Part shown: in pieces, positions 1-9,293 of the stretch
How the letters are laid out: every line of letters begins with the position of its first letter
Numbering within the stretch: position 1 is the stretch's first letter
Assembly: GCF_027925145.1 (NCBI RefSeq)
Contig: NZ_AP027130.1
Coordinates: 1,240,001 to 1,304,000 of the forward strand
Direction: 5' to 3'
Source: Thermodesulfomicrobium sp. WS
Lineage (GTDB): Bacteria; Desulfobacterota; Desulfovibrionia; Desulfovibrionales; Desulfomicrobiaceae
DNA length: 64,000 nt
Program-made: the position numbers and the translations under genes
The notes under the pieces: generated by a model
What the model was told of the DNA's origin: nothing
The model's database searches: none
Seen by the model: the letters and a program-made list of their open reading frames with translations, nothing else

Positions 1-1
1 A

Positions 2-925
2 GTCTACCACATGCAGATCAGTCCGTATTCCGTGGGCCCGTCGGACTTTGCCGGGGTGGTGCTCTCCTTTTGGGACGTTACCGCCTCGGTGCGCATGCGC
101 CAGGAGCTCTCCGTGTTGGAACATCGCCTGCGCGAGGCCATGCGCCTGGCGCGCCTGGGCTTTTGGGTGGGCCATGGGGTGGGGCTGGACCAATATTGGG
201 ACGAGGAGACCTTTGCCGTGTTCGGTCTGCCCCCCAAGAACGCCATGACCCTGACGGAGATCGTGGATCTCTTCGATGCCGAGTACCGGCCTTTGGTGCA
301 CGACGCCTTGTTCCGTCTGGGCAAGGAGCGCACACCGGTGGACATGATCGCCCGGTTGCGTGCGGACTTGGGCCCCAAATGGATCCGCATTCTGGGGCGC
401 TGGGAAGAGGACCCCAAAGGCCCTGAGGTGCGTGGGGTCTATCAGGACATCACCCACGTGCAGGAACTGCGCGAGCGCTTGGCGGTGCTGGAGCGCGGGC
501 AAGGCCGTGGGCATGAGAGCGTGTACCGCTATTTCTTCGACACCCTTGCCCACGGGGCCGTGATCCAGGACGCCCACGGCCGGATTGTGGATGCCAATCC
601 CGCGGCCGAGGCCATTTTGGGCCGCAGCCTTGCCGCCATGCAGGGTCGTACCTCCGAGGACGATGAGTGGCGGGCCATCCGTGAGGATGGCACCCCTTTT
701 CCCGGTGCCGAGCACCCGGCCATGGTGGCCTTGCGTGAGGGGCGAGAGGTCCTGGACGTGTCCATGGGCGTCTGGCGTCCGTCGGACCAGCGCTGGGTGT
801 GGATCCGCATCAACTCCTATCCGGTGTTCTGTGATGGCGAGTCTCGGCCCTGTCGGGTGTTCACCGTGTTCGAAGAGGTGCGTCCCCAGGAAACGGCGGG
901 GGCAGCGTCCAGGGAGCAGCGATGA
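2..925 (+). CDS. PAS-domain signalling protein, C-terminal part (5' end outside window)
   Basis: The reading frame is already open at the window edge, so only the C-terminal ~307 residues are visible and the first Met (position 11) is probably internal. Residues 1-30 look like the end of a PAS-type domain (GVVLSFWDVT, like the GVVLTF-DIT that closes PAS domains in CheB/CheR-PAS fusions). Two further PAS units follow at about residues 40-155 (PAS_3-like, ending in YQDITHVQEL) and 170-290 (FDTLAHGAVIQDAHGRIVDAN). No kinase or output domain follows. The stop overlaps the next start (ATGA), so it heads or belongs to the signalling operon. It could be the tail of a CheB/CheR-type methylesterase/methyltransferase fusion; that is inference from one motif. 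Confidence 0.75.
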   Translation, partial: VYHMQISPYSVGPSDFAGVVLSFWDVTASVRMRQELSVLEHRLREAMRLARLGFWVGHGVGLDQYWDEETFAVFGLPPKNAMTLTEIVDLFDAEYRPLVHDALFRLGKERTPVDMIARLRADLGPKWIRILGRWEEDPKGPEVRGVYQDITHVQELRERLAVLERGQGRGHESVYRYFFDTLAHGAVIQDAHGRIVDANPAAEAILGRSLAAMQGRTSEDDEWRAIREDGTPFPGAEHPAMVALREGREVLDVSMGVWRPSDQRWVWIRINSYPVFCDGESRPCRVFTVFEEVRPQETAGAASREQR

Positions 926-2655
926 GCGAGGCCAGACGTCAGCGTATCGATGCCTTGCGGCTCCGCGTGGAGTCCTTGGCGTGTGACGGCCGCATCAGCC
1001 CCGAGGACGCCGCGTTGGTAGAGGAACTGGTCACCGAGCTTGCGGTGTACAAGGGTGAGCTGGAGGTGCAAAACGAGACCCTGCGGGAGACTCTGGCGGA
1101 GCTGGAGGCCTCGCGCGCTCGTTTCCAGCGCCTCTTTCAGTATGCACCCATCGGCTATGCGGTGCTCGACGGCACCGGCGTGGTGTGCGAGGCCAACATC
1201 GCTTTGGCTGCCCTGGCAGACATGCCGCAGGCGCGGATCTGTGGTCGGCACTTTTCCCGATTGCTCGCCCCGGAAACGGTCCCGGCCTTTATCCTGCGTC
1301 TGCGTGAGGTGATGGCTCAGGGCGGGGAGCGCAGTGTGAACGCGGTGTTGGTCCACCAGGACGGCGCAAGCACGCCGGTACGTCTGGTGCTTTTTTGTGA
1401 CGCCGAAGCCTGCGCCGGGGAGAATACCCAGGTGCTGCTGGCGGTCATCGACATGACCCTGGTGCGGCGGCGGGAGGCCGAGCTCTCTGCCGCCCTGGAG
1501 GCGGCCAAGGCCGCGGACCGGGCCAAGAGTGAATTTTTGGCCACCATGAGCCACGAACTGCGCACCCCCCTCAATGGCATCCTGGGGATGCTCCAGCTTC
1601 TGGAAGGTACGGCCCTTTCCGAAGAGCAGCGTTTTTACGTGACCCAGGCCGGGGGCGCCTCCCGGCATTTGGTGCGGCTGCTTTCCGATGTCCTGGATTT
1701 TGCCCGTCTGGATACCGGGCGCCCGGAGCCGGTGGTGGAGCGTTTTGCCGTGCGCGAGGACGTGCTGGAGCCGGTGCAGGGAACCTTGGGCCTGGAAGCG
1801 GCGGGCAAAGGGCTTGCGCTGCGTCTGGAGACGGCCCCGGAACTTGCGCCCTGGTGGCGGGGAGACGGCAGCCGGCTGCGGCAAATCCTCCTCAATCTCG
1901 TGGGCAATGCCATCAAGTACACCTCCGAGGGCGAGGTCTCGGTGTGGGTGGAGGCATGTCCGCGGGGGCTGCGGCTCTGGGTGGAGGACACGGGCCCGGG
2001 CATGAGTGATGCCACCTTGGAGCGGCTCTTTGATCCCTTTTGCCGTGGCGAACAAACCCAGCGGACCAGTGGCGTCGGTCTCGGCATGGCCATCGTGGCC
2101 CGGCTGCTGCGCCTGATGGGCGGAAGCCTCTGCGTGGAGACTGCCCTCGGCCGGGGGACGCGCATGGTGGTGGTGGTGCCGGGCCAGCCCTTTGTGGGGC
2201 AGATGGATGCGGGGACCCCGCCTCGCCCCCAGCCGGTGACCGTGGGCCCCACCTGCGCGGGCCGGGTGCGGGTGCTGGTGGTGGAAGACGATGCCGTCAA
2301 CCGCCTGGTGGCGGTGCGGCTTTTGCGCTCTCAGAACTACGAGGTGCGCGAGGCCGTGAACGCTTCCGAGGCCCTTGCCTGGCTCGCGGAGGAGTGCTTC
2401 GACGTGGTGCTCATGGATGTGCAGATGCCGGGCATGGACGGCGTTGAAGCCACCCGCCGCATCCGCGAGTCCCAGACCCCGTATCGCCATATCCCCATCA
2501 TCGCCATGACCGCCCATGCCTTTGCCGAGGACCGGCAGCGGTTTCTTGCCGCAGGCATGGACGAGGTGCTCACCAAGCCCTTCGATATTTCCATGGTGCA
2601 GGCCACCATCTCCGCGGTATTGGCAACGCAGAGCATGAATAGGGAGCAGTCATGA
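922..2655 (+). CDS. Hybrid sensor histidine kinase (PAS-HisKA-HATPase-REC)
   Basis: 577 aa, apparently cytoplasmic (no membrane segment seen). A short coiled coil (about 35-65) leads into a PAS domain (65-190), then a HisKA dimerisation helix with the intact H-box [10 protein letters not shown] (phosphoacceptor H211), an HATPase_c domain with N-box [10 protein letters not shown] and DTGPGMS, and a C-terminal receiver with acidic cluster VVEDD and phosphorylatable D499 in [12 protein letters not shown]. This is a complete His-Asp hybrid kinase; phosphate would pass H211 to D499 and on to an HPt such as that of the gene at 4211. It overlaps both neighbours by 4 nt (ATGA), implying translational coupling. 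Ligand unknown. Confidence 0.9.
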
Positions 2656-4202
2656 AGAGCTACCGCAGCATGTCTGCCGAGGAGTTGGCGCAGCTCGTCC
2701 AAAGTGAAGGCGTGCCGGAGCATGTGCGCCAGGTGATGCTGGAGATCCTCTGGGAGCTCAAACAATATGAGGAGGAGCTGCGTATCCAAAACGAGGAACT
2801 GCGTCGGGCGGCCTTGGAACTGGAAACCATGGCCGAGCGCTACACCACGCTTTTCCATTCCGCCCCCTTGGGGCTTGCGGTGGTGGACGCCCATGGACTG
2901 GTGCGTCGGGCCAATGCGGCCCTGCTCGCACTCTTGGGGACCACGCGGCAGGAGGTGGAAGGGCATCCCATCACGGTCTTTGTGCACCGCAAGAGTCACG
3001 GCGTGTGGATGCAGCAGCTTGCCCAGGCGGCAGGGGGCTATAGCACCCGCGAGCGGCTCCTGCTTGCCCCGGACGAGCATCCTGTGTTGGCGAGCCTTGG
3101 TCCCGTCGGAGCGGACGAATTCCTGCTCACCCTGGTGGACCAAGGCGCGGAAGAAGCGGCGCGGGAAGATCAACGCCGCGCCTTGGCCAGCTTCCACACC
3201 CTCGTGGAGCGCACGCCCTTGGGGCTGTGCATCACCAATCCCCAGGGCATCTTCGAGTACGTGAACCCTGCCTATTGCCGCTTGTACGGCTATAGCGCCG
3301 AGGAACTTGTGGGCCAGCATTTCACCCTGGTGGTGCCGGAAACGCAGCGGGCGGAACTGATTGCCCTGCACGACCGCTTCATCGCCGGCGAGGCGGAACT
3401 GCGCGGCGAGTGGGAGGTGGTGCGCAAGGACGGCCAGCGGCTGCATATCCTCGCCGATGCCGCCCGCATCGAAGGCGAGGACGGCGCCCCGCGCAAGGTG
3501 ACTTTTGTCATGGACATCACCGAACGTGTGGCTGCCGAGCGTTTGCGCCAGGAGATCGAGGCCATCGTGCGCCATGACTTGCGCGCCCCCCTTTCGGGTA
3601 TCGTGGGACTCACCCCGTTGCTTTTGGAAGACACCAATCTCACCGACGAACAGCGCGAGATGCTTTTGGCCATCCACAAGGCGGGCCGCCGCATGATGCG
3701 TATGCTGAGCGAGTCCGTGTCCTTGGTGGCCATGGAGCGCGGCACCTATACGCTTGCGCCCCAGGCCGTGGATCTCATGGGAGTCCTTGATGAGGTGGTT
3801 GCCGACCTGGAGGAATTGCGGCGGCGCAAGCATATCGAGATCACTATCCTCCAGTGTTGTGAAACCACCCAATGTCCCGTGCTCGGCGAAGAGGCCCTGC
3901 TCTATTCCATCTGCGCCAATTTGCTGCGAAATGCCTTGGAAGCCTCGCCGCAGGGGGCAACGGTGGAGGCGCATATCCGCTGTGGGCCCCAGGTGCTGCT
4001 CACGGTGAAGAATCCGGGTTCCATCCCTGAGGACTTTCTCCCCCGTATCTTCGACAAGTTCGCCACCTGGGGCAAAAAGGGCGGAACCGGTCTGGGGACC
4101 TATAGCGCCCGGCTCATGGCCCGCACCATGGGTGGGGACGTGGTGGTGGCGAGCAGCGAAGGCGAGGTATGCTTTACGGCGATCCTTCCTTCTGCGGTGT
4201 GA
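2652..4202 (+). CDS. PAS-PAS sensor histidine kinase
   Basis: 516 aa, soluble. An N-terminal helical segment (1-60, EEELRIQNEELRRAALELE) resembles that of the upstream kinase, suggesting duplication. Two PAS domains follow (about 65-165 and 175-295; the second ends in TFVMDITERVAAE), then an H-box RHDLRAPLSGI (H308) and an HATPase_c domain whose G-box is GTGLGTYSARLMA. There is no receiver, so the phosphoryl group must go to another protein's receiver, plausibly in this cluster. The start overlaps the preceding gene by 4 nt; the stop lies 8 nt before the next start. Confidence 0.9.
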   Translation: MKSYRSMSAEELAQLVQSEGVPEHVRQVMLEILWELKQYEEELRIQNEELRRAALELETMAERYTTLFHSAPLGLAVVDAHGLVRRANAALLALLGTTRQEVEGHPITVFVHRKSHGVWMQQLAQAAGGYSTRERLLLAPDEHPVLASLGPVGADEFLLTLVDQGAEEAAREDQRRALASFHTLVERTPLGLCITNPQGIFEYVNPAYCRLYGYSAEELVGQHFTLVVPETQRAELIALHDRFIAGEAELRGEWEVVRKDGQRLHILADAARIEGEDGAPRKVTFVMDITERVAAERLRQEIEAIVRHDLRAPLSGIVGLTPLLLEDTNLTDEQREMLLAIHKAGRRMMRMLSESVSLVAMERGTYTLAPQAVDLMGVLDEVVADLEELRRRKHIEITILQCCETTQCPVLGEEALLYSICANLLRNALEASPQGATVEAHIRCGPQVLLTVKNPGSIPEDFLPRIFDKFATWGKKGGTGLGTYSARLMARTMGGDVVVASSEGEVCFTAILPSAV

Positions 4203-4210
4203 GGTGCGCC

Positions 4211-7039
4211 ATGGAAGATTCTCCGTCTGCTGCCAATCTGGACGACGCAGTGTCGCAACCTCAGAGGATCGGGGATGATGCGGCCGTCATCGCCGGCTTG
4301 GAGGCCCATGTGCGCCTGTTGCGCCAGGAAGTGCAGCGGGTGCGGGAGCAGGGCGTGCTGTGCAGTGCCCTGATGGCCGAATCCCCGGTGGGGATTGCCG
4401 TGTATTCCGCCTTGCAGGGCGGCGAGGACTTCGTGTTCGTGGACCTCAATCCCGCGGGCCAGCGTTTGGTGGACATGAGTCGGGACCAGGTGGTGGGGCG
4501 CTGTCTCTCGGAGCTCTTTCCCGGGGTGCGGGCCATGGGCTTGCTGGACGCCCTGGAGGCGGCTTGGCGTACGGGGGAGCCCCAGCGTCTTCCCCCTCGG
4601 GAATACCGGGATCGGCGCATTCGGCTATGGGCGGAGAATCACGTGGTGCGCCTCTCTACGGGGCATGTGGCCAGCTTTTTCCTGGACGTCTCGGCGTGGA
4701 TATGGCGCCGCGTGGAGGATGGCCGGGGCATAGTCCGGTTCCGCCGGCTGTACCAGCGTCTCCATGAAGGTTTTTGTTTCGTGAATCACCTGGGCCAAGT
4801 GGTGGAGGCCAATCCCGCCCTGGAGGCCCTTTTGGGCGTGGCCCCGGGCGGGCTTGAGGGCCGCCGCTGGCAGGAGTTGGTGTCCCCTGCGGGCCACGAG
4901 GTGATGGCCATCATTGCCCGTCTTCTGGAAGAGCGCGGTTCGTCGCCGGCCATGGAACTGGAGCTTCTGGGCAGCGCCGGGCCGGTGCCGGTGCATCTGT
5001 CCGCCTACCGGGAAGAGGACGGCTGGTGGGCCATGGTGCGCGACGCCTCCGAGGCGCGGCGCCTGCGCGAGGTGATCGCCTGGCGGCACTTGGAAGCAAC
5101 CACCCTGGCGGATCTCTCCCAGTCCTTGCTGACCTGCGAGGACCTGCGCGAGCTGGGGCGGCGCGTGGTGGAGGCGGCGGTACGCCTCACGGACAGCCGT
5201 TACGGCTTTGCAGGGTATGTGCGCGAGGATGGCGCCCTGGTGTCGTCGGCCAGCTCGCTCTCCATGCAGCAGTGCGCCATGAAGGACCACGATCTGGTGT
5301 TCAGCGGGGTCCGTGGCCTGTGGGCCGAGGCGATGCATACCGGTGCCATGGTGGTGGTGGATGACCTCGCGTCCCATCCCTTGGCGCGGGGGCTTCCTGA
5401 AGGGCATGTGCCCATCACCAATTTTTGCGCCTATCCTGTGGTGGATGCCGGCCGGGTGGTGGGAGAGATCGCCGTGGCCAATGCCGCCCAGGGGTACCGG
5501 CACGAGCGGGTGGAGTCAGTGCTTGCGCGCCTGGCCACGGTGTATGCCCTGGCCCTGCGCCGCGCTCGTGAGGGGGAAGCCCTGCAGCGCGCCCAAGCAC
5601 GCATCCAGCAGGAGACGGCCGCGACGTCCGGGCAGGTGCGGCAGATGGTGGAGCGGCTCCTGGTGCCGGTGCAGATCTTGATGGAATTGGCCTCCTCTTT
5701 GGAAGACCGGCAATGGGATCCACGCACCCGCGGCTATGTGGAAGGCATCGGCGAATGCGCCCGCGGTCTTCTGCGGAGCCTGCAGCAGGCCGAGCTGGCC
5801 TTCGGCCAGGAGATTCGCCTGGACGAAGCGGTCTTTGACCTCCCGGACGCCCTCAAGGACCTCGTGCGCCGCCAGATGCCGCTGTGGACCGCCAAGGGCC
5901 TCAGCCTGCACTTGGCCCTGGAGCCGACAGTCCCCCAGTGGGTGCGGGCGGATATGGGGAGCATCCTGCTGATGCTCGAGCAGCTTTTGGCCAATGCCCT
6001 GAATCATACCCAAAGCGGCGGGGCCCGCCTGGCGGTCTTTGCCCGGCCTTCGGCAGAGGTCCAGGACCGCATCGAGATCCGCATGTGCGTGGAGGACTCG
6101 GGTCTCGGTATCTCCGAGGCCCAGCAGGCGAGTATCGCCGCCTTTTTTCTCCAAGGAAAGGGCGAGGGCGTTGGCACGGGCCTCACCGTAGTGCGCCGCA
6201 TTCTCACGGCCCTGGAGGGGACGATCCAATTCTCCAGCAGGCTCGGGCATGGGACCGTGGTCTGCGTGACCATTCCCCTGTATCGGGCTCAGCCGCTGCA
6301 GGATGCCCCTGCGGTGTTGGTGGTGGATGACGAGCCCTTGCAGCGGGATCTGCTCCGCCGGCTGCTGTTGGGGTTGGGAAGATTTGCCATTCGCGAGGTG
6401 GAAAGCGGGGCCGCTGCCCTCCGGGTTCTGGCCCAAGAGCCGGTGCACATGGTGCTGGTGGATATGGATCTTGCGGATATGTCGGGCCTGGAGGTGGCCC
6501 GGATCCTGCGGGAGCGCGAACATGCCGCCGGGCAATCGCCCGTGCCGGTGTTTCTGGTGACCGGGTTCGCCCCTGAGGAGCTCCCGGACACGCACCATCC
6601 CCAGTGGGGGCCCTTGGTGCAGGGCGTGCTCCAGAAACCGGTGCCGGTGGACAAGCTGCGGACTGCCCTGGAACAGGCAGGTTTGCCTGTGGATGCGCCA
6701 TGGGACGACGCCGACGCCTTGGCGCAATTGGGCGGAGACCTTCAGCTTCTGAACGATCTGCGCCGGATGTTCGCCGCCGAGGCGCCCCAGCGCCTCTCCG
6801 AAGGGCGCGCGGCCCTGGAACGCGGCGATCTTGCCACGGCCCTGCGCATGTTTCATGCGCTCAAAGGCAATGCCGCCACCATCGGCGCCACGGAAGTGAG
6901 CACACTGGCCCGCGCCGTCCATGATGCCCTGCGTTTGGGGCAGGTCAACGAGGCGGTGTCTTTGCTGCCTGCCCTGCAGACCGCCTTGGATCGCGTGGGC
7001 ATGGTCCTTAAGGAGAAGCCCCATGAGTCCACTCTATAG
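4211..7039 (+). CDS. Hybrid PAS-GAF kinase-like protein with REC and HPt, phosphoacceptor His apparently replaced by Glu
   Basis: 942 aa from the ATG at 4211; an upstream in-frame ATG at 4169 lies inside the previous gene. Order: two PAS-like domains (about 30-150 and 170-290), GAF (about 300-440), a HisKA-like helical pair, HATPase_c with N-box LLANALNHT and DSGLGIS, a receiver (D751 in VLVDMDLADM, Lys in LQKPVPV), and a C-terminal HPt with FHALKGNAATIG (H882). Where SHELRTPLN is expected, the helix reads VERLLVPVQ, which puts Glu481 at the histidine position. It therefore probably cannot autophosphorylate in the usual way and may act as an acceptor/phosphorelay hub using D751 and H882. It overlaps the next gene by 17 nt. 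Confidence 0.85.
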   Translation: MEDSPSAANLDDAVSQPQRIGDDAAVIAGLEAHVRLLRQEVQRVREQGVLCSALMAESPVGIAVYSALQGGEDFVFVDLNPAGQRLVDMSRDQVVGRCLSELFPGVRAMGLLDALEAAWRTGEPQRLPPREYRDRRIRLWAENHVVRLSTGHVASFFLDVSAWIWRRVEDGRGIVRFRRLYQRLHEGFCFVNHLGQVVEANPALEALLGVAPGGLEGRRWQELVSPAGHEVMAIIARLLEERGSSPAMELELLGSAGPVPVHLSAYREEDGWWAMVRDASEARRLREVIAWRHLEATTLADLSQSLLTCEDLRELGRRVVEAAVRLTDSRYGFAGYVREDGALVSSASSLSMQQCAMKDHDLVFSGVRGLWAEAMHTGAMVVVDDLASHPLARGLPEGHVPITNFCAYPVVDAGRVVGEIAVANAAQGYRHERVESVLARLATVYALALRRAREGEALQRAQARIQQETAATSGQVRQMVERLLVPVQILMELASSLEDRQWDPRTRGYVEGIGECARGLLRSLQQAELAFGQEIRLDEAVFDLPDALKDLVRRQMPLWTAKGLSLHLALEPTVPQWVRADMGSILLMLEQLLANALNHTQSGGARLAVFARPSAEVQDRIEIRMCVEDSGLGISEAQQASIAAFFLQGKGEGVGTGLTVVRRILTALEGTIQFSSRLGHGTVVCVTIPLYRAQPLQDAPAVLVVDDEPLQRDLLRRLLLGLGRFAIREVESGAAALRVLAQEPVHMVLVDMDLADMSGLEVARILREREHAAGQSPVPVFLVTGFAPEELPDTHHPQWGPLVQGVLQKPVPVDKLRTALEQAGLPVDAPWDDADALAQLGGDLQLLNDLRRMFAAEAPQRLSEGRAALERGDLATALRMFHALKGNAATIGATEVSTLARAVHDALRLGQVNEAVSLLPALQTALDRVGMVLKEKPHESTL

Positions 7040-9293
7040 TCTTGCGCATCGCCATGACCGTACCCCGCGGGTGCTCATCGTGGATGACGAAGCCTTTTAC
7101 CGCACCCAGCTCTCGCGCATGGTGGAAGGCTTCGGCTACCAATGGGTGGCGGTGGCTTCCGGCGAGGAGGCCTTGGATATATTGGACCGCAGCTTCGATG
7201 TGGTGCTTTTGGACGTGCTCATGCCCGGGCTCGACGGCTACGAGACCCTCAAGACCATCCGCGGACTGCCCGAGGTCAAGGATATCCCGGTGATCATGGT
7301 CACCAGCCTCGACGACCTGGCCACGGAACTGCGCGCCGTGGAGCTGGGGGCCAACGACTACGTCACCAAGCCGGTACGCCATTTGGAGCTGCGCCTGCGC
7401 GTGGCCAATTGGATCCGCATGAAGGCCATGGCGGACGAGAACTATGATGTCCGCCGCCACTTGGAAGGGGTGGTGCTGGAGCTGGAGCGCTCCCAGGCGC
7501 ATGTGCGCGAACTGCTCGAAGAGCGCACCCGGCGTCTGGCCCACGCCCAGGATGCGCTGGAGCAGGAGCGGATCTCCCTGGAGGAGACGCGGCTGCAGCT
7601 GCGCCTGCTGGACACAGTGCTCTTGCACTCCTTGCAGGGCATTACCATCACCGATGCCCAGGGCACCATCGTGCGCGTCAATCCGGCCTTTACCGCCATT
7701 ACCGGCTATAGCGCCGAGGAGGCCATTGGCCAGAATCCGCGGATCCTCAAGTCCCATGTGCATCCGCCCGAGTTTTATGCCAACATGTGGCGCACGCTGC
7801 GCGAGACCGGCTTTTGGACCGGCGAGATCTGGAACCGCAAAAAGAGCGGCGAGGTCTATCCGGAGCGCCTCACCATCACCGCATTTGCCGACGATCAAGG
7901 CCGGGTGACCCACTACGTGGCCATCTTTCATGATATCTCCGAATACAAGCGCCAAGAGGAACGGCTGCGCTTTCAGGAGTTCCATGACCTGCTCACCGGC
8001 CTGCCCAACCGCGCCCTGTTTTTGGACCGCCTGCGCAAGAATCTGTCCGTCGGCAGGCCCGCTGCGGTGTTCTTCGTGGACGTGGACAATTTTCTCCACG
8101 TCAACGAAAGCTTGGGGTACACCGCTGGCGACGAGGTGCTGCGGGTGGTGAGCAAGCGTCTGGCCGCAGCAGTGGGGCCGGAGCATACCGTGGCGCGTCT
8201 GGCCGGTGACGAATTCGGCGTGCTGGTGCTCGGCCTTTCCCGCACCGAGGACGCCCTGCCCCTCGGCGATCGTCTCCTTCGAGCCTTCCAGCGCCCCATT
8301 GTCGTGGCGGGGGAGTCTGTGGTGCTTAGCGCGAGCATCGGGGTGGCCTTGGCCCCCCAGGACGCCACCGAGGCCGAGGGCCTCCTCGGCCGGGCCGAGA
8401 TGGCCATGCTGCGCATCAAAAAGAGCGGCAAGAATCAGCTCATGTTCTTTGACCCCGAATTGGCGGAGCGGGCGGGATTGCGGCTCAAGCGGGAGATGGA
8501 CGTGCGCCGGGGCATGGATGCCGGGGAGTTCGTCATGTACTACCAGCCCAAGATCCGTCTTGCCGACGGCGCCATCGCCGGCTTCGAGGCCCTGGTGCGC
8601 TGGCGGCGGCCGGACGGCTCCATGGTACCGCCGGGTGAGTTCATCCCCCTGTGCGAGGAGACCGGGCTCATTGTGGACTTGGGCGAGCACATCCTGCGTC
8701 TGGTATGCCAGGACATGGGCATCATGGCCCGACATTTGCCCACGGTCCTGCCGGTGGCCTTCAACGTCTCGGCCGTGCAGTTCGACCAGCCGCAGTTTGT
8801 GGAAACCCTGGAGCGGACCGTTGCTGCCTTTGGCGTGCCCCCGCACCTGCTGGAAGTGGAGATCACCGAGACGAGCATCATGCGCGATTTCGGCCAGGCT
8901 TTGGCCCGGCTGGAGCGCTTGGCCTCTTTGGGGTTTCGCTTGCATCTTGATGATTTCGGCACGGGATACGCCTCCTTGGGCTATCTCAAGCAGCTGCCCA
9001 TCCACGTGCTCAAAATCGATCAAAGCTTCATGCGCGGCATCCCCGGCGACCCCAAGGACGAGCGTCTGGTGCGCACCATCATCGACTTGGGCCGCAACTT
9101 CGCCCTGACGGTGCTGGCCGAGGGGGTGGAGACCGCCGCGCAGGTGGCGTTCTTGCGCAAGGGCGGCTGCGACGAGGCCCAGGGCTACTTCTTTGCCCGC
9201 CCCATGCCCCTCGATGAGGCCCTGGCCTTTGTGCGCACTTGTCCCACCTGTCTTCTGGCAGAAGCAGAGTCGGCTTCTTTGGGGGATGGCTGA
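7023..9293 (+). CDS. Response regulator with PAS, GGDEF and EAL domains (cyclic di-GMP turnover)
   Basis: 756 aa. The start at 7023 is chosen because AAGGAGAA sits just upstream and the receiver begins directly after it. REC at 10-130 (D64 in VLLDVLMPGLDG), a coiled coil (140-190), PAS (195-320, ending in HDISEYK), GGDEF (330-490) with the catalytic variant AGDEF at 394-398, and EAL (505-750) with E522-A-L, EITETS, DDFGTGYASLG and AEGVET. Key residues of both catalytic domains are present, so it could synthesise and/or degrade c-di-GMP, gated by phosphorylation of D64 from the upstream kinases. Last gene of the signalling run; its stop is only 6 nt from the stop of convergent cbiA. Confidence 0.93.
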   Translation: MSPLYSLAHRHDRTPRVLIVDDEAFYRTQLSRMVEGFGYQWVAVASGEEALDILDRSFDVVLLDVLMPGLDGYETLKTIRGLPEVKDIPVIMVTSLDDLATELRAVELGANDYVTKPVRHLELRLRVANWIRMKAMADENYDVRRHLEGVVLELERSQAHVRELLEERTRRLAHAQDALEQERISLEETRLQLRLLDTVLLHSLQGITITDAQGTIVRVNPAFTAITGYSAEEAIGQNPRILKSHVHPPEFYANMWRTLRETGFWTGEIWNRKKSGEVYPERLTITAFADDQGRVTHYVAIFHDISEYKRQEERLRFQEFHDLLTGLPNRALFLDRLRKNLSVGRPAAVFFVDVDNFLHVNESLGYTAGDEVLRVVSKRLAAAVGPEHTVARLAGDEFGVLVLGLSRTEDALPLGDRLLRAFQRPIVVAGESVVLSASIGVALAPQDATEAEGLLGRAEMAMLRIKKSGKNQLMFFDPELAERAGLRLKREMDVRRGMDAGEFVMYYQPKIRLADGAIAGFEALVRWRRPDGSMVPPGEFIPLCEETGLIVDLGEHILRLVCQDMGIMARHLPTVLPVAFNVSAVQFDQPQFVETLERTVAAFGVPPHLLEVEITETSIMRDFGQALARLERLASLGFRLHLDDFGTGYASLGYLKQLPIHVLKIDQSFMRGIPGDPKDERLVRTIIDLGRNFALTVLAEGVETAAQVAFLRKGGCDEAQGYFFARPMPLDEALAFVRTCPTCLLAEAESASLGDG

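Follow-up and report, generated by a model that had tools for sequence, protein, structure and literature searches.

What can a hybrid sensor kinase contribute to a phosphorelay when the histidine on which it should phosphorylate itself is missing? The question is raised by a gene (gene D) in Thermodesulfomicrobium sp. WS, a sulfate-reducer-type bacterium of the family Desulfomicrobiaceae. The window analysed is a stretch of 64,000 nucleotides, positions 1,240,001-1,304,000 of the one-contig 2.36-Mb genome, and its coordinates are used in Table 1. The frame of gene D gave a translation free of stop codons, in which the numbering of E481, D751 and H882 was verified. Two PAS domains, GAF, HATPase_c, Response_reg and Hpt were all found above the Pfam cut-off. 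With a kinase fold and no phosphoacceptor, D belongs to the class of pseudo-histidine kinases.

Table 1. Positions in the window of genes A to E and of the domains and sites of protein D.
Feature	Residues of D	Position	Strand	Remark or basis
Gene A, CheB-CheR-PAS fusion, 3' end		1..925	+	start upstream of window
Gene B, PAS-HisKA-HATPase-REC hybrid kinase		922..2655	+	His intact, without HPt
Gene C, PAS-PAS-HisKA-HATPase kinase		2652..4202	+	His intact, without REC, Asn in G1 box
Gene D, hybrid pseudo-histidine kinase, PAS-PAS-GAF-DHp(degenerate)-HATPase_c-REC-HPt		4211..7039	+	942 aa
First PAS-like domain	about 50-165	4358..4705	+	PAS_4 in two stretches, approximate limits
Second PAS domain	176-284	4736..5062	+	PF08448
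GAF domain	310-449	5138..5557	+	PF13185, E 1.2e-21
Eroded DHp helix alpha-1	470-498	5618..5704	+	alignment, core model, orthologue comparison
Glu481 codon, phosphoacceptor position	481	5651..5653	+	MAFFT and phmmer alignments
DHp helix alpha-2, better retained	504-530	5720..5800	+	core model, orthologue comparison
HATPase_c domain, ATP lid shortened	585-691	5963..6283	+	Pfam, alignment
Receiver domain, Asp751	702-820	6314..6670	+	PF00072
HPt domain, His882 in HALKG	849-929	6755..6997	+	PF01627, E 2.1e-13
Gene E, REC-PAS-GGDEF-EAL response regulator		7023..9293	+	start codon within last 17 bases of D

The preliminary description had placed a Glu at the position of the kinase His and proposed alignment with the HisKA family (PF00512) as a check. 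The absence of His was borne out: the Pfam scan gave no PF00512 match in the D protein at E ≤ 1, and the site is not among the 36 places in the whole genome that match PF00512 at E ≤ 0.1. When residues 276-698 of D were aligned by MAFFT with 45 distinct kinase cores, taken from its own genome and its order, the column of E481 held His in all 45. From the H-box to helix alpha-2, D aligned with kinase B in this register without a gap. A phmmer comparison with solved structures paired VERLLVP of D with SHEIRTP of GacS (7z8n) and SHEFRTP of ShkA (6qrj), the Glu falling on the His of both without local gaps. A DHp profile built from the genome's own kinases set Pro486 on the Pro of HELRTP, although with a weak score, and the predicted hairpin in the D core, with helices ending at residue 498 and starting at residue 504, lay at the expected place.

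An orthologue from the same genus (G002), 60% identical overall, has Gly at the phosphoacceptor position. Thus the Glu is present in D, as had been described, but is not itself conserved; on these alignments, the conserved feature is the loss of His. Glu481 as a conserved phospho-mimic was rejected on the same comparison. A sequencing error or hidden frameshift was likewise rejected: no H-box lies in the other frames, the orthologue too is without His, and the Gly that it carries at the site rules out a sequencing error as the reason. One global MAFFT run produced another register, six residues upstream, in which D has Gly and the orthologue has His. This register demands a six-residue insertion before alpha-2, whereas that of E481 is ungapped, and we discarded it. 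As it would place Gly at the site, D lacks the His in both registers.

In HisKA enzymes an acidic residue at H+1 usually serves the autokinase reaction, and Thr or Asn at H+4 the phosphatase chemistry. The aligned kinases have Glu or Asp at H+1, where both D and its orthologue have Arg, and active HisKA kinases have Thr or Asn at H+4, where D and the orthologue have Val or Pro. Because the Thr or Asn at H+4 has been lost, a phosphatase role of D through its DHp domain is unlikely.

Comparison of the two species showed where D has changed most. Only 8 of the 29 residues of alpha-1 are identical between D and its orthologue (3 of 17 around the phosphoacceptor site), compared with 27/29 in kinase B and 28/29 in kinase C over the same stretch (Fisher p 4e-7 and 4e-8, respectively). 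Helix alpha-2 is identical at 17 of 27 positions, and identity in the other domains is 71% and 69% (PAS), 66% (GAF), 61% (CA), 53% (REC) and 65% (HPt). As judged from these identities, erosion of D is confined locally to alpha-1. D is also the fastest evolving of the compared genes, its neighbours being 66-78% identical between the species (78% for gene E). Rapid change and an eroded alpha-1 are what might be seen if the kinase part were decaying and the gene heading for loss of function. However, the frame is open over its full length in both species and the REC, HPt and ATP-site residues are intact. Moreover, each domain, DHp included, has a dN/dS of roughly 0.1-0.3 (dN 0.35 and dS 1.3 for the whole gene), although with dS near saturation this is a guide value only. 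With ratios this low throughout, gene D does not look like a pseudogene; purifying selection, by this measure, acts on all of its domains. We consider decay very unlikely.

Complete orthologues of D are known from these two species only: none with its architecture was found outside the genus in 348 genomes of the order, where the next-best relatives were mostly GAF-kinase parts of about 30% identity. In another genome of the genus (L038:4585-6555), a segment 98% identical to the C-terminal 184 residues of D is fused in-frame to a methyl-accepting chemotaxis protein near a contig end, which is probably a misassembly.

A model of the D core, of medium confidence (mean pLDDT 65.9), has the DHp hairpin and the CA fold in their usual form; the prediction for full-length D (mean pLDDT 44) was of too low quality for use. 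Structural matches of the core model include GacS, ShkA, RetS and DivL. The CA domain alone fits the matched structures at about 2.7-3 Å, and the large rmsd of two-domain alignments makes the DHp/CA arrangement in the model unreliable.

The appearance of RetS and DivL among both the sequence and the fold matches could indicate that D, like RetS, inhibits a neighbouring kinase or is its allosteric partner, or that, like DivL, it senses a response regulator in phosphorylated form. RetS of Pseudomonas resembles D as a hybrid sensor that acts on another kinase, and is a good match to the core fold. DivL of Caulobacter has a HisKA-type core in which another residue, Tyr550, replaces the His. It is a well-studied His-less kinase that senses a phosphorylated regulator and retains its fold without kinase or phosphatase activity (PMC4211667). 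Yet neither protein matched D better than the ordinary kinases GacS and ShkA did. Both act through the DHp domain, by which DivL senses DivK~P, whereas in D alpha-1, the docking surface in the RetS and DivL models, is the least conserved segment. DivL, with its Tyr, has neither REC nor HPt; D, with Glu or Gly at the site, has both, and this explanation leaves their conserved sites unaccounted for. We therefore regard a role as inhibitor or sensor of this kind as improbable.

The ATP-binding domain, previously thought to look intact, is so in part. Both species have the invariant residues of the N, G1 and G2 boxes (N595, D629, G631, G633, G653, G655 and G657), but the ATP lid is about six residues shorter, the F-box Phe at 643 is Ala, and the G2-box Leu at 656 is Thr or Met. 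It is unlikely, though worth weighing, that D is still an ATP-using enzyme, phosphorylating either its own HPt His882, by a CheA-like wiring arisen anew, or the DHp His of a neighbour in trans.

In the second of these arrangements D would be one half of a heterodimeric kinase, its ATP domain acting on the His of a partner DHp, that of C or B. Phosphorylation in trans of this kind has been proposed for FasB/FasC (PMC12675982), and RetS/GacS illustrates a further heterodimer option. The kept ATP-site invariants suit a heterodimer, and the neighbour C carries the His, but the shortened lid and the lost Phe and Leu argue against it, as does the erosion of alpha-1, which is part of the dimer core. 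The two upstream kinases had been taken as conventional, which holds for the His of both; C, however, has Asn in place of the G1-box Asp. This might have suggested a split site, with C lacking a good ATP site and D supplying one. That idea is weakened by the C subfamily, in which 16 of 16 aligned members retain the His and have Asn instead of Asp in the G1 box: since the Asn is a trait of the whole subfamily, C does not evidently need a helper. A heterodimer seems rather improbable. Gene C (2652-4202) has an HDLR H-box, and its G1 box reads NxGxIP instead of DxGxG and is followed by GTGLGTYSARL.

A direct, CheA-like phosphorylation of HPt His882 by the HATPase domain, bypassing the DHp His, would account for the retention of ATP site and HPt in two species that have both lost the DHp His. 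Against this, Pfam shows no sequence affinity of D to the kinase parts of CheA, the lid is shortened, and the REC domain sits between HATPase and HPt. We know of no hybrid kinase with the domain order of D that phosphorylates its HPt His directly from the HATPase domain, and we judge this wiring highly improbable.

The relay domains themselves retain their active-site residues. The receiver has the acidic pair in VVDDE, Asp751, the Thr of LVTG and the Lys of LQKP; as had been noted from the sequence, Asp751 and the HPt His882 are intact, and both domains match their Pfam families.

The surroundings of D contain candidate partners. CheA, CheR, CheB and two HPt-REC proteins lie upstream of the window, followed by gene A, which reaches into it. 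Genes A to E are tightly packed, with ends that mostly overlap, and the order cheB-HPtREC-HPtREC-A-B-C-D-E is collinear in the second species (G002). The two HPt-REC genes upstream of the window are in tandem (L049:7812-9608), beside CheB and the CheB-CheR-PAS fusion. Two distant genomes (L153 and L154) have an HPt-REC pair resembling this one, together with a kinase of the C type; no counterpart of D was recognised in those clusters. In gene E (7023-9293) the GGDEF motif is AGDEF and the EAL domain looks intact; the protein resembles DibA-type phosphodiesterases.

The domains of adjacent genes complement each other: C offers a His but lacks a receiver, D combines a receiver with an HPt but lacks a source of phosphate, and E brings a receiver and no kinase. 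We favour the explanation that D is an RcsD-like pseudo-histidine kinase serving as a sensory phosphorelay adaptor, and consider this probably correct. D had been proposed as either a phosphate relay hub or a kinase inhibitor. The relay hub is the better supported, because both species retain the REC and HPt active sites, in the same order, despite erosion of the phosphoacceptor helix of the DHp; the inhibitor is less so, alpha-1 being the least conserved part.

As such an adaptor, D would be unable to phosphorylate itself on its DHp domain. Phosphate would instead pass from the His of kinase C, or possibly B, to Asp751 of the D receiver, from there to His882 of the HPt, and on to the receiver of the adjacent E, whose phosphorylation would raise or lower c-di-GMP. 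A chain from C through D to E is the simplest that domain content and gene order suggest, and the receiver of B could also feed His882. The PAS-PAS-GAF part may gate phosphate transfer and alpha-2 may keep D dimeric, while nucleotide binding, if the ATP site is still capable of it, may act as a conformational switch. We infer this route, with its partners, dimer and gating, from sequence. Two findings speak against an adaptor: D has retained ATP-binding motifs for which a pure adaptor would have no use, and its REC ranks second lowest in conservation among its parts. In addition, the two HPt-REC proteins and CheA of the cluster could serve B, C and E in place of D.

In function the closest precedent is RcsD, a phosphotransfer protein that carries additional kinase-like domains and a HATPase without activity, and that has been suggested to have arisen, like RcsC, from an ancestral protein by duplication (PMC7418988). 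Like D, it ends in an HPt with a conserved His, which follows PAS-like, DHp and HATPase regions, the DHp being degenerate, and it is fed by another kinase, as we propose for D. RcsD differs in being membrane-bound, in a HATPase that has been described as inactive, and in carrying an ABL domain where D has an intact receiver (PF00072, D751); D also has kept ATP-site residues, two PAS domains and a GAF. The D core scored lower with the RcsD family model (41.4 bits, cut-off 634) than with those of RcsC (84) or TorS (125), so D is not an RcsD orthologue. The unorthodox hybrid kinases ArcB, BarA and TorS share the order sensor-DHp-CA-REC-HPt with D, but they have the phosphoacceptor His and autophosphorylate.

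His is absent from about 0.9% of HisKA domains (722/76,471), in a study that also defined pseudo-histidine kinases (PMC12632262); the class is thus already known. A limited search of open-access literature found no description of a lost phosphoacceptor helix combined with a kept ATP site, REC and HPt beside two kinases and a GGDEF-EAL regulator. Within the known class D is a clear and conserved case, unusual in keeping ATP site, REC and HPt together. The pseudo-histidine kinases compared here either have no relay domains (DivL) or, in the case of RcsD, are described as having neither an active ATP domain nor a receiver. In D only the phosphoacceptor helix has been lost, and the ATP site, REC and HPt appear to be still under selection in two species. 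Lying beside probable donor kinases and a c-di-GMP output, D would offer a compact natural system for asking what kinase-dead hybrid sensors add to phosphorelays.
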